From Granulicoccus phenolivorans DSM 17626 = NBRC 107789 = JCM 15570 (GTDB lineage: Bacteria; Actinomycetota; Actinomycetes; Propionibacteriales; Propionibacteriaceae), in the NCBI RefSeq assembly GCF_000423085.1, contig NZ_AUHH01000022.1:1-64000 (forward strand): DNA of 64,000 bases, written 5' to 3'. The translations under genes were made by a program, and so were the position numbers. The notes beneath the pieces were generated by a model, which ran no database searches, was not told where the DNA came from, and was given only the letters and a program-made list of their open reading frames with translations. This document shows, in pieces, positions 46,525 through 60,063 of this stretch (its first letter is position 1; each line of letters opens with the position of its first letter).

Positions 46525-47178
46525 TTATCGCCATATTCGTCGCGTCGGTGGGGTGTGGCCCAACCGGGGCGCGGCCGTCTGGGCCCAGACCCGGAGCCAG
46601 TTCGCGCCCGATTCCACGGCCTCGGAGGGATCTTCGCCGCGGGCGCGCACCTGTTGCACCTGCCACCAACTGGTGGAGTCCTCGGCCAGCAGATCCATCA
46701 CCGCAGCATGCGCGGCGACGGTGGTGGTGCTCGGCGTCCCGGCCGGAATGGGTTCGCCGAAGCGGATCCGGATGTCGGGGTCGGTGGCCGCGGCGTACGC
46801 CCCCCGGATCCCGACCGGCACCAGCGGGACGCGGGCCCGTTCGGCCAGTTCGGCCGGATATTCGTGGAAGCGGCGCAGCGTCGGCCCGGGCTCCTGCTCG
46901 GGGAAGGTGAGCACCTTCAGGCCGCGTTTCAGCGCGAGCACGATCAGGTCGGCCTGGGCGCCGGGGTGGTCGAAGTCCATCGCTCGCACCCCCCAGGACC
47001 GGCCCACCCGATCCCCGAGTTGGCGGATCACCAGGATCGGCCCGGCAACCGCCCCCGCCAGCAGTCGGGCGTCGTGATCGGTGGGATGGTTCGACACCAG
47101 GACCGCGCCCCCGCGCGGCACCCGCTGGGTGCCGTACCAGGTCACGCCCCGAGCGCCCGCCCGGCAGATGCCGCTCAT
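46525..47178 (-). CDS. PlsC-like lysophospholipid/glycerolipid acyltransferase
   Basis: A 217-aa protein with an acyltransferase block I, SNHPTDHDAR, giving the HX4D pair H31 and D36. A second block, LKVLTFPEQEPGPT, stands where PlsC proteins have FPEGTRS; it is degenerate. VPLVPVGIRGAYAA corresponds to block IV. There is no clear TM anchor, so it may act peripherally. The ATG overlaps the stop of the LarA-like gene (ATGA). Being coupled to a fatty-acyl reductase gene two positions upstream, it may acylate a glycerol, fatty alcohol or ether intermediate (inference). A longer frame upstream is a shadow. Confidence 0.75.
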   Translation of the reverse strand: MSGICRAGARGVTWYGTQRVPRGGAVLVSNHPTDHDARLLAGAVAGPILVIRQLGDRVGRSWGVRAMDFDHPGAQADLIVLALKRGLKVLTFPEQEPGPTLRRFHEYPAELAERARVPLVPVGIRGAYAAATDPDIRIRFGEPIPAGTPSTTTVAAHAAVMDLLAEDSTSWWQVQQVRARGEDPSEAVESGANWLRVWAQTAAPRLGHTPPTRRIWR

Positions 47179-48707
47179 GCCGTGGCCTCGGTGACCTGGA
47201 CGCGTACCGGCGGGGTGTGCAGCAGGCGGATCCGGGGGGTCCGGCCGACCTGGGCCGAGGCGATCTCGAGCGCATCGGCGAGGGTGCTGGCGGCCCGGAA
47301 GCCGAGCCGAGCGGCGGCGGCACGGTCGGCACCGACCCAGATGATGTCGCTGCAGTGCCGGACCGCGGGTTGGATCGCGTACCACAGTTCCAGCGGGTGC
47401 AGGCCGTGGTGGGCGCCCTGGGTGGCGTACTGGTGTCGGTACCACTCGTCGGTGGCGAAGCGGGCCTCGAACCGGTCCCGGATCACGGTGGCGTCGGTGG
47501 TCTCCGGCAGCACTTCGGCGAAGAAGTCGGCGGCGGCGGTGTCGAAGCGCGCGCTGAAGGCCTGGGCCAGCGGCGCGAAGCAGATCATCACCCCGCCGGG
47601 GCGGACCGCCGGGGTGCCGGCGTGGCTGCCGAAGCTGTGGGCCAGGCAGTCCCAGGCGGCGACCAGCGGGTTCATCACCGCGTCCACGTTGTGCTCGGTG
47701 GTCGAGGCGGGCCCGGTGATCAGCACATCGGACTGCCCGACCACCTCGACGCTCTGCTGGGCGCTCAGCAGTTCGGTGGTACGCCCGGTCACCTCGGCGA
47801 TGCCCCCGGCATGGACGGCCAGGACGCCGTAGTCCTGGGTGGCGCCGGCGAACAGGCGGCGCCGGGTCTGCCGCGGCGCGATCGTCAGGGCCCGTTGCAC
47901 CGCGGCGGCCGCGGCCCGATCCTGCAGCTGCCACTCCCATTCGCGCTTGCTCAGGAAGCGCAGCGGACCGGTCCAGACCCCGGGGCTGAGCACCACATCG
48001 ACGGCGAACACCGGCACCGCGCTGGTGATCTCCGCCAGCACCCGGTCCTCGGTGGCCGGATCCGGATCCAGCCCGAGCTGGGCCCAGGCGGTCTGCTGCC
48101 CGGTGATGCCTCGGGTCAGCTGTCGGCCGTTGGTGTGGCCGAGTTCGCCGGTCACATTGAGGTTGATCACCAGGTCGGCCTGGCCGACCGCCTCGTTGAC
48201 GCTGACCCCGTCGGCGAGCGTGGTCAGGCTGCGGGTCTGGGTCGCGTCATGGCTGAACAGCTTGCCGTCGTGGAAGAAGGAACGGTGTACCCGCTCCCCG
48301 GTCAGCTGCTGCAGCTCCGAGCCGCTCATCTTGCGCCGCAGCCCATTGGCCAGCAGCACCGTCACCTCGTCGACGCGGGCGGTGGCGGCGAGTTCCAGGA
48401 TCCGCTCCAGCACGGTGGCGCGGATGTCGGAGCCGGCCATCGCAGGAGCCGGCCGCGCGGAATCGGTGACCACCAGGGCGAGCCGGCGTACCCCGGCCAG
48501 GCGGGTCCGCAGCGGCGCCGAGCCGAGCGGGGTGGCCAGGGCCTTGTCGATGGCCTCGAGGGAATCGGGGACCCGGTCGAGTGCCTCGCTGGGGTACAGC
48601 ACCTCGGTCCCCCGCGGCATCCGTTGCATCCGGACGCCCGGACCGGCGGGGACCAGCAGTTCGGGGGTGCGCTCGTCGGTTTCGAGAAGGAATCCAGGAC
48701 GGGACAT
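47175..48707 (-). CDS. LarA-like (DUF2088, lactate racemase N-domain) protein
   Basis: A 510-aa protein resembling LarA, the nickel-pincer-nucleotide lactate racemase. The DSARPAPAM segment (82-90) stands where LarA has its RPTP motif, and VTVLLANGLRRKMS (about 115-128) where LarA has the ALGTHRPM motif. The catalytic-site histidine of that motif is replaced by arginine here. GVSVNEAVGQADLVINLNVTGELGHTNG corresponds to the mid-region. No larB, larC or larE is in the window. Racemase activity is therefore doubtful. It lies 18 bp after the reductase-HAD gene, with AGGAGA upstream, and is coupled to the PlsC-like gene. Confidence 0.65.
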   Translation of the reverse strand: MSRPGFLLETDERTPELLVPAGPGVRMQRMPRGTEVLYPSEALDRVPDSLEAIDKALATPLGSAPLRTRLAGVRRLALVVTDSARPAPAMAGSDIRATVLERILELAATARVDEVTVLLANGLRRKMSGSELQQLTGERVHRSFFHDGKLFSHDATQTRSLTTLADGVSVNEAVGQADLVINLNVTGELGHTNGRQLTRGITGQQTAWAQLGLDPDPATEDRVLAEITSAVPVFAVDVVLSPGVWTGPLRFLSKREWEWQLQDRAAAAAVQRALTIAPRQTRRRLFAGATQDYGVLAVHAGGIAEVTGRTTELLSAQQSVEVVGQSDVLITGPASTTEHNVDAVMNPLVAAWDCLAHSFGSHAGTPAVRPGGVMICFAPLAQAFSARFDTAAADFFAEVLPETTDATVIRDRFEARFATDEWYRHQYATQGAHHGLHPLELWYAIQPAVRHCSDIIWVGADRAAAARLGFRAASTLADALEIASAQVGRTPRIRLLHTPPVRVQVTEATA

Positions 48708-48725
48708 GTCGGTTCTCCTAGCCGG

Positions 48726-51062
48726 TCAGGACTGGACCGACCAGCGAGGGGTCTGCGCCATGGCGTCCCACTCGACGGTCGTCCACGAATTCGAATTGGC
48801 GGCCCGCATCAGGCCGAGGTCAGGATTCACCGCGACCGGGTTGCCGACCGCGGCCAGCATCGGCAGGTCGGCGTGGGAGTCGGCGTACGCATAGGACTTC
48901 GACAGGTCGATCCCGTGGGTCTCGGCGAACCGCTTCAGCCAGGCCGGCCGGGACTCCCCGACCATCGGCGGTCCGGTGAGGAACCCGGTGCAGCGCCCGT
49001 CGGCGTCGACGTCGAGTTCGCCGGCGACGATGTGGTCGAACAGCGGTGCCAGCGGGCGGGTCAGCGGCCGGATCGCCCCGGTCATCAGGATGGTGGTGTG
49101 CCCGGCGGCCCGGTGCTCGCGGACCCGGCGGATCGCGTCCGGGCTCAGCCGGTCCAGGATCCGACGCCCGACATGGCCGTCGATCGCCGCCTCCAACTGG
49201 GCCAGGTCCGCCCCGGCGTAGCGGCGGTAAATGGCGCGCAGGAAGGTGCCGCGATCGGTCCGCTCCGCGCGCAGGTACGCCGGCAGCGACCCCAGCAGGG
49301 CGGTCACCTCCGACAGCTTCTCCCGGTTCGACAACTCCGGCAGCCGCGCCCACAGGTAGGTCTCCACCACGTTGCCGCTCATCACGGTGCCGTCGAGATC
49401 GAAGACCGCGATCACCGTGCTGGGATCGTCCTTGACCTTCGACAGGTCCCGGAACGTGCTGGCCCGGGTCCCGGCCCGGCGGCGCAGCCGATCCATCCGG
49501 CGGACGGGTTCGGTCACCGAGGGGGTGTGGATCTCCTCGATGTACTCCCGCCAGTCGATCACCGCGGTGTCCATCGCCCAGGTCGCGACATCGTCGGGAT
49601 GCAGCGAACGGTGCAGGGCGAGGGTGTGGTCGTCCATGAAGTGCAGTTCGGAGCGCAGGTATTCCCCGTACAGCGACAGGTAGCGACGCATGAAGACCGT
49701 CCGGCTGGACAGCTTGTCGACCTGCTCGGCCAGGCTGCGGGTCCGCCGGCTGCGCGGGGCAAAATCGAGCAGCCGGTTGGCGACCTTCGAGGCCCGCTCG
49801 GAGGTGGTCAGCAGTTGCTCGACCTTGGCCGATCCCGGCCAGTTCCAGGTCGCCAACGGCGTGGAGCGGGCCCCGGTCGCCATCGGGTGTTCGGTGAAGT
49901 AGTTGCGGATGTGGTGATACACCCGGCGGAAGGTCAGCGGATTCCGCGCGCCGGAACTGGCGTGATAGAACTCCGGCGTCCCGACCTCGGGCTCGGTGGC
50001 GCACACCGCGAGGATGCAGTTCACCACGTGGTCGCAGGGCACGATGTCGATCACCGAGTCCGGGGACGCGGGGAACTCGGGCATCTGGCCCTTGCCGTAG
50101 GCATGGATGATCGGTTCGGCCATCTTGAAGCCCTCGATCCAGCCCGGGTAGGGATGCACCAGGGAGGACTCCACGATCGCCGGCCGGACGATCGACACCT
50201 TGATCTCGCGGCCCAGGTCGGCCACGATCCGCTCCCCCATCGCCTTGGCGAAGGTGTACACGTCGGTCCAGCCCAGGGAGCGCGCACGTTCGGTCCCGGC
50301 CCGGACCAGTTCGTCGTGCACCCACTGCACCCGGCGGCGCTCGATGTCCTTGGCGGTGGTCAGGTACCCGGCCTGGCGATGCACCCGCTCGGCCTCCCGA
50401 CGCAGCTTGCCCAGCCGCTCCGGGGTACGCGAGTCGGTCCGGATCCGCTCGGCGATCGCCAGCGCGGCCTCGGTCTCGACCATGTAGTCGGCCTCGTGCT
50501 CGTGCGGGGCCTCCGGGATGGCACCGCGCCGCCGGCCGGCGGTGTAGGCGGTGGAGACGTGCACGTAGTGCGGGATCTTGGCCAGCTTGCCGTCGACGGT
50601 CATCGCCTCGAGCATCTTGGTCATCAGTGCCCGGGTGCCGATCACATTGGTCGCGAAGGCCTGGTCGATCGGCGGGTCGAAGGACACGTCACCGGCGCAG
50701 TGCACCAGCACGTCCAGGTCGTGCGGCAGGTCCGGGACGTTGGGCAGGTCACCCTCGATCACGTCGATCCGCTGCTCGATCAGGGCCTCCGGGCCGCCGG
50801 CGGCCTCCCGCAGATCCTTGAAGATGCGCTTCTTCAGCAGCTGGATGACCCGGGCCCGGGCGGTGGCCGAACCCTTGCGACGGACCAGAACGCCGGCGCG
50901 AGTGTCGGGCAGGGAGGTCAGCAACTTCCACAACAGCTGTTCGCCGATGAAGCCGGTGACCCCGGTGATGACGATCTTCTTGCCGGCCAGCAGGTCGGCC
51001 ATCCGACCGTCCAGCGTGCGGCCGCCCCGGACCCCGGTGACGACGGGAGTGGTCTCGCTCAT
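48726..51062 (-). CDS. Fatty acyl-CoA reductase-like SDR fused to HAD-IB phosphatase
   Basis: A 778-aa fusion. Residues 28-400 form an extended SDR of the male-sterility/NAD_binding_4 type: ITGVTGFIG (32-40), HVSTAYTAG with S170, and Y269-xxx-K273 (YTFAKAMGE). Residues about 460-515 resemble the fatty acyl-CoA reductase C-domain ([10 protein letters not shown]...[11 protein letters not shown]). Residues about 548-760 are an HAD-IB phosphatase-like domain with FDLDGT (554-559) and [13 protein letters not shown]. It probably reduces an acyl thioester to aldehyde or alcohol; the HAD part may remove a phosphate. The ATG overlaps the hisA stop (ATGA). Confidence 0.82.
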
Positions 51063-51805
51063 GCCGTGGCGTCGGTTTCCTCGCCGGCTGCGATGCGCAG
51101 GGCATCCGACAGCGCGAACCGGCCTTCGTACAGGGCGGTGCCAATGATGGCGCCCTCGACCCCGATCGGGACGAGCCCGGCCAGCTGCCGGATGTCGGCC
51201 AGGGTGGAGATTCCGCCGGAGGCGACCACGGGCTTGTCGGTCCGCGCGCAGATGGCCCCGAGCAGCTCGAAGTTGGGGCCGCTGAGCATCCCGTCGGACT
51301 TCACGTCGGTCACCACGAACCGGGCGCAACCGGCCTCGTCCAGCCGCTGCAGGGTCTCGAACACGTCCCCGCCCTCCCGGGTCCAGCCGCGGGCGGCCAG
51401 TCGATCGCCCTTCACGTCCAGCCCGATCGCGATCCGGTCGCCGTGGCGGGCGATGATCTCGGCGCACCACTGCGGGTTCTCCAGGGCGGCGGTGCCGATA
51501 TTGACCCGGGCGCAGCCGGTGGCCAGGGCCCGCTCCAGGGAGGCGTCGTCGCGGATCCCGCCGGACAGTTCCACCTGCAACTTCATCTGCGAGGTCACTT
51601 CGGCGATCACCTCGGCGTTGGAACCCCGGCCGAACGCGGCGTCCAGATCGACCAGGTGAATCCAGTGCGCACCGGCGTCCTGCCAGCGCTGCGCGGCTTC
51701 CAGAGGGTCACCGAAGACCTTCTCGGAGCCCGCCTCGCCCTGCACCAGTTGCACGGCCTGCCCGCCGCGTACGTCCACTGCCGGAAGCAAAGTCAGAGAA
51801 TCCAC
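51059..51805 (-). CDS. hisA: Phosphoribosyl isomerase A (HisA, possibly bifunctional PriA)
   Basis: A 248-aa TIM barrel converting ProFAR to PRFAR. It begins [20 protein letters not shown] and has [10 protein letters not shown] and [13 protein letters not shown] phosphate-binding loops. In many actinobacteria lacking trpF this enzyme (PriA) also isomerises PRA in tryptophan synthesis; whether trpF exists here is not known. The start is GTG with no Shine-Dalgarno and a TAGGCT -10 element 6 nt upstream, so it appears to have its own leaderless promoter. It is far from hisH (62042) and coupled instead to the reductase-HAD gene. Confidence 0.95.
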
Positions 51806-57264: not shown

Positions 57265-60063
57265 TCAGCCCTTGAGCCCGCCGAGGAGGAACTTGGTGTT
57301 GTCACTGGGGTGGGCGTCCAGCACGATCGCCAGCCGCTGATCGGACATCCCCCAGGGGATCACCGAATCGGCCGGCAGTTCCTGGGGGTCGCCCTGGCCG
57401 GTCCAGACCATCTTCATCCCGTCGCGGGTGCCGTAGATGTTCTTGGCGTCCGCCTTGATCGTGGACCAGCGGTCGACCACCTTCGAGGTCCCGTCGGCGA
57501 GCCGGACCAACAACGGACCCGCGGCGGCGAACTCCCCGCCCGGGGAGACTGTCAGGGGCATCCCGGCGTTCACCTGGTCGGTGGACAGCTTGCCCGAGGC
57601 GAGCAGCCGGCCGTCGTTGACGTCGTAGAGGCCGACGGTGCGGACCGCGTCGTCGGCGGTACGCCCCCAGGCCGCCACCACGCCTCGGGACAGCCACGCG
57701 ATGGTCATCTCGCCGACGGTGTCGGGCGCGTTCTGCGAGACCCGGACCGTGCGCGGCGCATTGCCCGGATGGGCGGGGTTGAACTGCCACGAACTGGTCG
57801 TCGGCGCGGAGACCATCTCCCCGTCGGCGGTCACGCCCAGCGCCTCGTGGTCGCCGGGGATGGTCACCGCGACCAGGTTCAGGTTGGCATCGACCATCCA
57901 GTTCTCCGAGCCGGTGGCCACCATCAGGCCGAACCCGACCTGGTTCATCTTGGCCCCCCGGGACAGGGTGATCTGCTTCGGCTGGGTGCCGCTGGGGGCG
58001 TTCAACGGCCACACCAGCAGGTTCGACCCATCGATGATCCCGGCAACCGGGACGTTCTGGGCCATCGCGATGAACGGCTTCGCATTCGGGGAGAAGGTCG
58101 CGGTGGAGCGGGACACCTCGGCGCCGTTGTCGGCGTTGAGCACCACGAGTTGGTTGCCCTGCAACAGCGCGATCCGGTTCTGATTCACCGCGATCTCGTT
58201 GACCTGCTCGATCGCGGTCGACCAGGCGAACTGGTTGGTCCAGCCCGGCGGCACGGGCCGGGAAACCGCGGCCGCCGAGGTGGCGGTCGACTGGGCACTC
58301 TGGCCGCCGCTCCCCAGCTGATTTACCCCGATCAGGATGGCGCCGGTGACAACCACCGCGATCACCGCGATCAGCGCCACGATCTTGGCGGTGGTGTTCG
58401 GCCCGTTCGGCTGGGGCGCCTGCCCGGTACCGGCCGGCTTCCACTGTTTGGGCGGCGGCGGCGGGGTCGCCTGGCTCCCGGCCGACGGGGTCGGCTGGAA
58501 CGCCGCCGACGGGTGCCCGTCGGGGTAGGCGACGCCGGGCTCGGGAACCGACTCATCGGCGGAGTTGGCCGGTTCGCTCCCGGGGTACCCGGCCGGATCG
58601 CTCCCCGGGTATTGGTCCGGATCGGCCGGTGCGTACGCCTGCGGACCCGGCCGGGGGGCGGGCATGGCGGGTCGAGCGGGCTGGTTGCCGAACGGATCGA
58701 ACCGGCCGGCGGGCTCGGCCGCGGTCAGGCCGGAACTGGGTGAGCCGAACGGATCCGCGTCCGGGGAGGAGATCGACGCCGGCGCCGGGGTGGCGCCGTT
58801 CGACCTGCTCGCTGCGGAGCCGTGGCCCTCGAGGGCGTTGGGGTCCGCGCCGGAGCGGGGGCCTTCCCCGGTGAGGTCGAACGCGTCGAAGTCGAACGCG
58901 TCCGGCACGGCGGACTCCGCCAGTCCGGAGGGTCGGTTCCCGGGGGCGGGGTCGGTCCGCGGGCCCTGGAGGTCGAACCGGGGGGCGGCCGGCGTACCCC
59001 CGGAATCGTTGATCGAGGGGGTGCCCGGGGACGCGGTCGGCCCGACCTGCAGCGGTACGCCGGCCGGCAGCACCGGCGAGTTCGTCGCGGGTGGCGCCGC
59101 GGGGCCGGTGTGCGGCGGGCCCGCAGGGGCGGGCCGGGACGGCGGATAGGCCGTCGGTCCGCTCGGGTGCAGGAATCCGGGCGGATACCCCGGCTGCGCA
59201 GCCGGCGGTGGGATCGGTGTCCCGGGCTGACCGGTGGGTCGCGGGGGGACGGCCCGGGCCGGGGGTGCCCAGAAGGGTGCCGGGTTGGCCGGAGGGGGTG
59301 GCACCGGATTCCCCGCCGGAGGCGGCACCGAATTCCCCGGAGGCGGTAGTGGTCGAGTCGCCGGACCGGTGGCTCGGGGCGGACCCGACACCTGGGGCGG
59401 GACCGAACCCGGCTGCGGGAACGGGCCCGGCTGCCGCGGCTCCGGGACACCGGACGGCCGCATCGGCTGCGGCGCGGGCCGCTGCCAGGCGGACCGGTCC
59501 CCGCCCGTACCGGGGCGCGGAGCGCCGGAGCCCGCCGGCGCGGACCCGTACGAACCGGGCGCAGCCGGAGCGGACCCGTACGAACCGGGCGCAGCCGGCG
59601 CAGAGCCGTACGAACCCGGCGCAGTCGGCGCAGAGCCGGCCGACAGCGGTGCGGAGCCCTGCGAGCCGGGCGCCGCGGCGGGCTGTCCGGGCAGCACCGG
59701 ACCCCGCAGGTGGGCGGCCGGAACTGTGCGGTCATCGGCCTGCGGCGGCATCCCCCGGCGGGGACCGGATGACGGATCGGTCGGCACCGCCGTAGCGTAC
59801 CCGCCCGAGGTACGGGTCGAATCCGGACCCGGTGCGGCGATATGGGTCCGTTCCCCGGCGGCCCGGTCCGATCCCGCCCGATTCGACCCCGCCCGATTCG
59901 ACCCCGGCGCACCCGGTGCGACGTCGGCCTGATCGTTCGCGGCCTCGAGATCGAAGACATTGGGATCCCGCTGTGCCAGCGGGACGAACCCCGGACGCCG
60001 GAACGGGTCAAGGGGCTGCGACGGCTCTTCGTCGGGTTCCCGCGGTGGATCGGGGACCCTCAT
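57265..60063 (-). CDS. Large Pro-rich single-TM protein with extracellular domain
   Basis: A 932-aa protein without recognised family. Residues 1-550 are disordered and dominated by Pro, Gly, Ala and Ser, with tandem decapeptides APGSYGSAPA (30-bp DNA repeat near 59540-59640) and GSNRA repeats. One TM helix follows at about 559-580. The remaining ~350 residues would be outside and show repeated beta-strand units (RIALLQGNQLVVLNADNG, GLYDVNDGRLLASG), suggesting a beta-propeller-like domain. There is no signal peptide, kinase domain or sortase motif. It starts 31 bp after the gene at 60095, so the two are probably cotranscribed. Confidence 0.78.
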   Translation of the reverse strand: MRVPDPPREPDEEPSQPLDPFRRPGFVPLAQRDPNVFDLEAANDQADVAPGAPGSNRAGSNRAGSDRAAGERTHIAAPGPDSTRTSGGYATAVPTDPSSGPRRGMPPQADDRTVPAAHLRGPVLPGQPAAAPGSQGSAPLSAGSAPTAPGSYGSAPAAPGSYGSAPAAPGSYGSAPAGSGAPRPGTGGDRSAWQRPAPQPMRPSGVPEPRQPGPFPQPGSVPPQVSGPPRATGPATRPLPPPGNSVPPPAGNPVPPPPANPAPFWAPPARAVPPRPTGQPGTPIPPPAAQPGYPPGFLHPSGPTAYPPSRPAPAGPPHTGPAAPPATNSPVLPAGVPLQVGPTASPGTPSINDSGGTPAAPRFDLQGPRTDPAPGNRPSGLAESAVPDAFDFDAFDLTGEGPRSGADPNALEGHGSAASRSNGATPAPASISSPDADPFGSPSSGLTAAEPAGRFDPFGNQPARPAMPAPRPGPQAYAPADPDQYPGSDPAGYPGSEPANSADESVPEPGVAYPDGHPSAAFQPTPSAGSQATPPPPPKQWKPAGTGQAPQPNGPNTTAKIVALIAVIAVVVTGAILIGVNQLGSGGQSAQSTATSAAAVSRPVPPGWTNQFAWSTAIEQVNEIAVNQNRIALLQGNQLVVLNADNGAEVSRSTATFSPNAKPFIAMAQNVPVAGIIDGSNLLVWPLNAPSGTQPKQITLSRGAKMNQVGFGLMVATGSENWMVDANLNLVAVTIPGDHEALGVTADGEMVSAPTTSSWQFNPAHPGNAPRTVRVSQNAPDTVGEMTIAWLSRGVVAAWGRTADDAVRTVGLYDVNDGRLLASGKLSTDQVNAGMPLTVSPGGEFAAAGPLLVRLADGTSKVVDRWSTIKADAKNIYGTRDGMKMVWTGQGDPQELPADSVIPWGMSDQRLAIVLDAHPSDNTKFLLGGLKG

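Follow-up and report, generated by a model that had tools for sequence, protein, structure and literature searches.

The three genes that follow hisA on the minus strand of the window (the whole 64,000-nucleotide stretch of Granulicoccus phenolivorans DNA analysed here) are probably a reduced, Propionibacteriaceae form of a four-gene cassette found across Actinobacteria, one in which nickel chemistry has been abandoned, a FAR-HAD fusion still does the enzymatic work, and the LarA-like and PlsC-like proteins are kept as partners that no longer catalyse. hisA itself (51059..51805; 248 aa; His_biosynth, PF00977, 233 bits) is followed by the gene for the 778-aa fusion (48726..51062), which joins a fatty acyl reductase (FAR; NAD_binding_4 plus FAR_C) to a C-terminal HAD-IB phosphatase, then by genes for a 510-aa LarA-like protein of the LarAH14 lineage (47175..48707) and a 217-aa PlsC-like protein (46525..47178). 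The sequence-only reading had described this row as joined by two ATGA overlaps and an 18-bp gap, and the coordinates confirm it: hisA overlaps FAR-HAD, the LarA-like gene overlaps the PlsC-like gene, and 18 bp separate FAR-HAD from the LarA-like gene. The row from hisA to the PlsC-like gene is probably co-transcribed. The transcript probably begins upstream of hisA: neuB (53788-52886, minus strand) and a polysialyltransferase-like gene (52874-51852, minus strand) run closely into hisA, with gaps of 11 and 46 bp. These two genes, one a NeuB family member (273 bits) and the other 340 aa long without a Pfam match, are a possible surface sialylation pair. Further along the window, a "tRNA-???" called by ARAGORN at 59479-59568 on the plus strand was rejected as spurious; it lacks a proper anticodon, lies in a GC-rich repeat, and no Rfam match was obtained anywhere in the window.

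The full cassette encodes FAR-HAD, a Zn-dependent alcohol dehydrogenase (Zn-ADH), a LarAH14-type nickel-pincer (NPN) protein and PlsC, in constant order and on one strand. Among 298 genomes of Propionibacteriales, 136 contain a LarA-like match; FAR-HAD lies just upstream of all the strong LarA matches examined in the order, and a PlsC-like ORF lies downstream of nearly all of them. A Zn-dependent medium-chain dehydrogenase is found between FAR-HAD and LarA in the families of Kribbella, Nocardioides and Actinopolymorpha (family labels of the comparison genomes are inferred, the window's family being taken as Propionibacteriaceae and f3 as Nocardioidaceae). A scan of named genomes extended the cassette to Frankia, Actinomadura, Actinoallomurus, Actinocatenispora, Haloactinopolyspora, Nitriliruptorales and Acidimicrobiia; among the 80 loci listed of more than 500, the order FAR-HAD, ADH, LarA, PlsC is found in nearly all that lie on a long enough contig, and loci from other classes with a FAR match have it too. 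In a sample of 397 genomes from the phylum, cassette-type LarA and FAR-HAD are each present in 92 and together in 87 of the 97 that have either, and many of the genomes with just one of the two are incomplete. The recurrence of the gene order throughout the phylum, with FAR-HAD upstream of every strong LarA match, argues that the arrangement is not due to chance. Three loci of family f21 have no adjacent PlsC match. In the same family, seven genomes (G385, G417, G407, G428, G504, G323 and G534) have a FAR-HAD match that in several cases contains in-frame stops, possibly representing split genes or sequencing errors. Stand-alone LarAH14 genes occur in 14 genomes, and FAR-HAD occurs in none of these 14. 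The stand-alone relatives (L188-L190, L195-L205) belong to a lineage without FAR-HAD and carry a full NPN site together with GGWKS/HHN motifs. No plasmid-borne copies of the cassette were found.

The sequence-only reading had proposed the trio as a candidate new pathway, to be abandoned if the three genes did not occur together elsewhere. They do occur together, widely, across Actinomycetota, and the trio is thus a real recurring unit; what has to be revised is its completeness, as a four-gene cassette has here been reduced to a trio without the Zn-ADH. The accompanying statement that no such system had been described agrees with our literature search, which returned only generic matches; the available part of PMC7583248, its Table S1 of gene contexts aside, likewise contains no mention of the cassette.

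Both halves of the window's fusion are well supported. The NAD(P)-binding and catalytic domain of FAR (residues 32-350; 50013..50969, minus strand) matches NAD_binding_4 (PF07993) with 162 bits and contains the FAR signature of GxxGxxG, Ser and YxxxK as GVTGFIG, STAY and YTFAK. The HAD-IB phosphatase domain (residues 552-736; 48855..49409, minus strand) scores 125 bits with PF12710 and 115 bits with TIGR01490, and displays the motifs DLDGT, LMTGA, GESR and ADSHAD. The FAR_C/"Sterile" domain is weaker, at 27 bits against a Pfam cut-off of 35, with the Kribbella orthologue just above the cut-off at 36 bits. The best solved relative is the fatty acyl-CoA reductase 7eoz, which aligns to residues 21-524 with 171 bits and leaves the HAD domain outside the match; family membership suggests that the substrate would be an acyl thioester. 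The catalytic motifs of FAR-HAD are intact in all 19 members examined from the window's family. In the FAR tree this family forms one clade nested inside the order, which argues for vertical descent with loss. The Zn-ADH is one such loss: it is absent between FAR-HAD and the LarA-like gene in the window, no close copy was found elsewhere in the genome, and of 14 family genomes tested G276 alone has it. The dehydrogenase is related to polyol dehydrogenases; its likeness to enzymes that oxidise or form secondary alcohols on polyols fits a role in work on a backbone.

Where the cassette is intact, its LarA most likely uses the NPN cofactor, judging from conserved residues and genome content. The protein scores 907-915 bits (915 in Kribbella) with the LarAH14/15/16 equivalog NF052592, whose cut-off is 740. 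Alignment to solved LarA shows that the equivalents of His108, Lys184 (NPN attachment) and His200 (nickel) are kept, each in 132 of 132 cassette members outside the window's family, and that His174 is absent, a lack that PMC12611868 already describes for group 14. All 65 genomes of the order with an intact cassette carry LarC. In 17 of 19 genomes of the Nocardioidaceae type there is no LarA other than the cassette protein, and yet LarC is present, which makes the cassette protein the most likely client of the cofactor; larB, larC and larE, as assigned from sequence, lie beside the cassette in several intact loci, among them L145, L173 and L164. At the position of Arg75, 130 of the 132 cassette members from outside the family have Leu or Ile, suggesting that the ligand of the intact protein may not be a carboxylate. 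A LarAH14 from Frankia sp. showed no activity in 7 isomerase assays (PMC7583248), whose authors suggested that groups without His174 or Lys298 may carry out a different hydride reaction.

In the window's family this site has been lost. The window LarA-like protein belongs to a family orthologous to the Frankia LarAH14 (PMC7583248; NF052592) but scores only 399 bits with NF052592 and lacks the NPN residues. It retains the fold, with 63 bits to Lar_N and a LarA fold in its AlphaFold model (pLDDT 80), whose best Foldseek matches are 9q3j (E 1.3e-23) and 9q3k. These are single-histidine LarA-like enzymes whose context points to carbohydrates (PMC12611868). The second catalytic histidine is missing in both cases, but 9q3j and 9q3k keep His115/117, Lys195/197 and the nickel-binding histidine, whereas the window protein has none of these: by alignment, its equivalents of the NPN lysine Lys184, the nickel ligand His200 and the catalytic His108 and His174 are all absent, R124 (codon 48336..48338, minus strand) taking the place of His108. 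Across the family, His108 is found in 2 of 28 sequences and Lys184 and His200 in none. In two distant LarA homologues from another family (L206 and L207, in G617 and G473; 26-27% identical to Kribbella LarAH14), the equivalents of His108 and Lys184 are likewise missing, apparently an independent loss of the nickel site.

In most trio genomes of the family, loss of the site is accompanied by loss of cofactor synthesis. LarC is missing in 35 of 57 family trio genomes and in none of 65 intact-cassette genomes (Fisher p about 8e-16, a value that overstates the significance because related genomes are not independent), and the distribution of LarE agrees except in one fragmented genome. All family LarC-positive genomes checked contain a second LarA, while in 19 of 21 LarC-negative genomes checked the cassette protein is the only one. 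The window genome is of the former type, with LarC (C45), LarE (C1) and a second LarA-type gene (C2:89397-89894). We considered that its NPN might be made for the LarA-like protein and rejected this, since the second LarA explains LarC and LarE and is likely their real user. In one LarC-negative genome (G082:C16:198783-199263), the second LarA lies in two adjacent pieces and is pseudogene-like, consistent with loss of NPN chemistry. Another genome (G202) is an exception, perhaps through an assembly gap, having four Lar_N proteins and neither LarC nor LarE above the cut-off.

The PlsC-like protein has decayed as well. The window copy scores 24 bits with the Pfam Acyltransferase model (cut-off 23), against 82 bits for the intact Kribbella version. 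It keeps the HX4D motif (NHPTDHD), while FPEGTR has become FPEQEPG; its N-terminal third is absent and a W-rich C-terminal tail is retained. The match to the solved PlsC/1-acyl-G3P acyltransferase 5kym is weak (22 bits), the window version having lost motif II and some of the core. HX4D is found in 11 of 23 family proteins and EGTR (motif II) in 2 of 23, compared with 25/25 and 23/25 in intact cassettes. Two family genomes preserve intermediate stages: G276 has kept the ADH (63-64%) and the PlsC motifs, with the LarA site gone, and in G055 the ADH is gone as well and the PlsC motifs remain. These intermediates suggest that the LarA site was lost before the ADH, and the ADH before the PlsC motifs.

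The LarA-like protein has nonetheless been retained. Its dN/dS values range from 0.18 to 0.59, rough estimates given strongly diverged and GC-biased synonymous sites. A REWEW motif (residues 255-259; 47931..47945, minus strand) is invariant in the 28 family sequences except for two Arg changes and one Glu-to-Asp change. It is also nearly invariant in intact cassettes, whereas 0 of 14 stand-alone LarAH14 relatives have it, although their active site is complete. REWEW thus tracks the cassette partners and not catalysis. In what is the most indirect part of our reasoning, we read it as a docking surface for those partners; it could be structural instead. Together with purifying selection, the conservation of the motif leads us to see in the LarA-like protein a partner of FAR-HAD that has no catalytic role. 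The sequence-only reading could assign this protein no obvious role; that puzzle is probably largely explained, on the comparative evidence, by an NPN protein elsewhere and a non-catalytic remnant partner here.

The same observations can be arranged in other ways. The LarA-like protein may still be an enzyme of the same lipid pathway, refunctionalised to a cofactor-free or differently bound activity, as loss of the known NPN residues may be compatible with a new catalytic activity. Its presence in 57 family genomes with the LarA fold, the conservation of REWEW, W442, G459 and DALE, and the retention in some lineages of Asp72 with Arg at the Arg75 position (9/28) all speak for this. However, no conserved replacement catalytic set is found at the His108, Lys184 and His200 positions, where the columns are highly variable (R/N/G/Q, R/A/C/D). 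In addition, all 298 intact pairs show stronger conservation of LarA than of FAR and none of the 293 family pairs does, LarA identity within the family having fallen far below that of FAR, and we regard a refunctionalised enzyme as rather unlikely. Less probable again is neutral decay, with the LarA-like and PlsC-like proteins as passengers kept only by translational coupling with their neighbours. Pairs that include the window have a raised dN/dS (0.46-0.59), a sign of relaxed constraint under which the LarA-like protein could eventually disappear; motifs have been lost, and the trio is often absent in other genera of the family. Passengers would not, however, be expected to remain as full-length ORFs in the family genomes examined at 36-56% identity to the window, nor to preserve conserved positions such as REWEW or the W-rich PlsC tail. 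Slightly harder still to credit is that the trio is a complete, active pathway, in which FAR makes a fatty alcohol, LarA isomerises a hydroxyacid and PlsC acylates. All three genes are conserved together, with FAR-HAD motifs intact and HX4D present in the window's PlsC-like protein, yet the Zn-ADH is missing, the LarA-like cofactor site is lost, most family trio genomes cannot make NPN and most PlsC motifs are gone. For the LarA step this reading is strongly disfavoured, and the earlier idea of the trio as a full pathway is not supported.

The coupling to hisA, which the sequence-only reading had taken as part of the system, proved to be positional. hisA adjoins the cassette only within the order Propionibacteriales; elsewhere the neighbours of the cassette vary, and his genes are absent beside the cassette loci of Frankia, Actinomadura and Acidimicrobiia. 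A functional tie to histidine synthesis, with the HAD domain acting as histidinol phosphatase, would account for the ATGA overlap of FAR-HAD with hisA and for the domain's 78 bits against histidinol-phosphatase models. That score is far below the cut-off of 280, however, the cassette lies away from his genes in most other actinobacteria, the HAD domain is fused to FAR across the whole phylum, and a HisN-like gene (263 bits; cut-off 275) is present elsewhere in the window genome. We have rejected this link and give it almost no credence.

The data have led us to propose a model for the cassette. In the intact form, FAR would turn an acyl thioester into a fatty aldehyde or alcohol by reduction, PlsC would acylate a polyol-type backbone, HAD would take off a phosphate, and the ADH and the NPN enzyme would act by hydride chemistry at hydroxyl carbons, either of the backbone or of the chain. 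The outcome would be a lipid containing a fatty alcohol, possibly an ether lipid. Along the lineage that led to the window, the NPN site of LarA, the ADH gene and the PlsC motifs would have been lost in turn, leaving LarA-like and PlsC-like proteins that may hold or regulate FAR-HAD, the former probably making contact through its REWEW-bearing surface. The closest described system, likened here by domain content, is the elb operon of M. xanthus (ElbB, HAD; ElbD, FAR-ACS-ACP-AGPAT; ElbE), which, like MXAN_1674-1676 (FAR-GNPAT, AGPS), is described in PMC9131029 (citing Lorenzen 2014) as producing alkyl/vinyl ether lipids. The two share FAR1-like, HAD and AGPAT/PlsC-like domains, whereas the actinobacterial cassette adds a Zn-ADH and LarAH14, has its HAD fused to FAR and belongs to a different phylum; no acyl-CoA synthetase, ACP or AGPS is found among the cassette genes. 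Because FAR, HAD and an AGPAT-like protein form part of the elb enzyme set, an alkyl-ether or other fatty-alcohol lipid is, by analogy, the most reasonable suggestion for the product. Long-chain 1,2-diol lipids were also considered, a speculation for which no literature support was found.

More tentatively, the intact cassette could be a new lipid pathway with a single-histidine NPN hydride step on the backbone, whose NPN protein became an obligatory non-catalytic FAR subunit in one family. Hydride transfer on a lipid backbone, if true, would be a kind of reaction that NPN proteins are not known to perform, and the tie between the orphan LarAH14 group and a lipid-gene context guides the choice of substrates to try. 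The natural series from the intact cassette through loss of the LarA site and of the ADH to the decayed PlsC offers a way to separate the NPN protein's job from its catalysis. Within the window's family, proteins annotated as nickel-dependent racemases probably are not.
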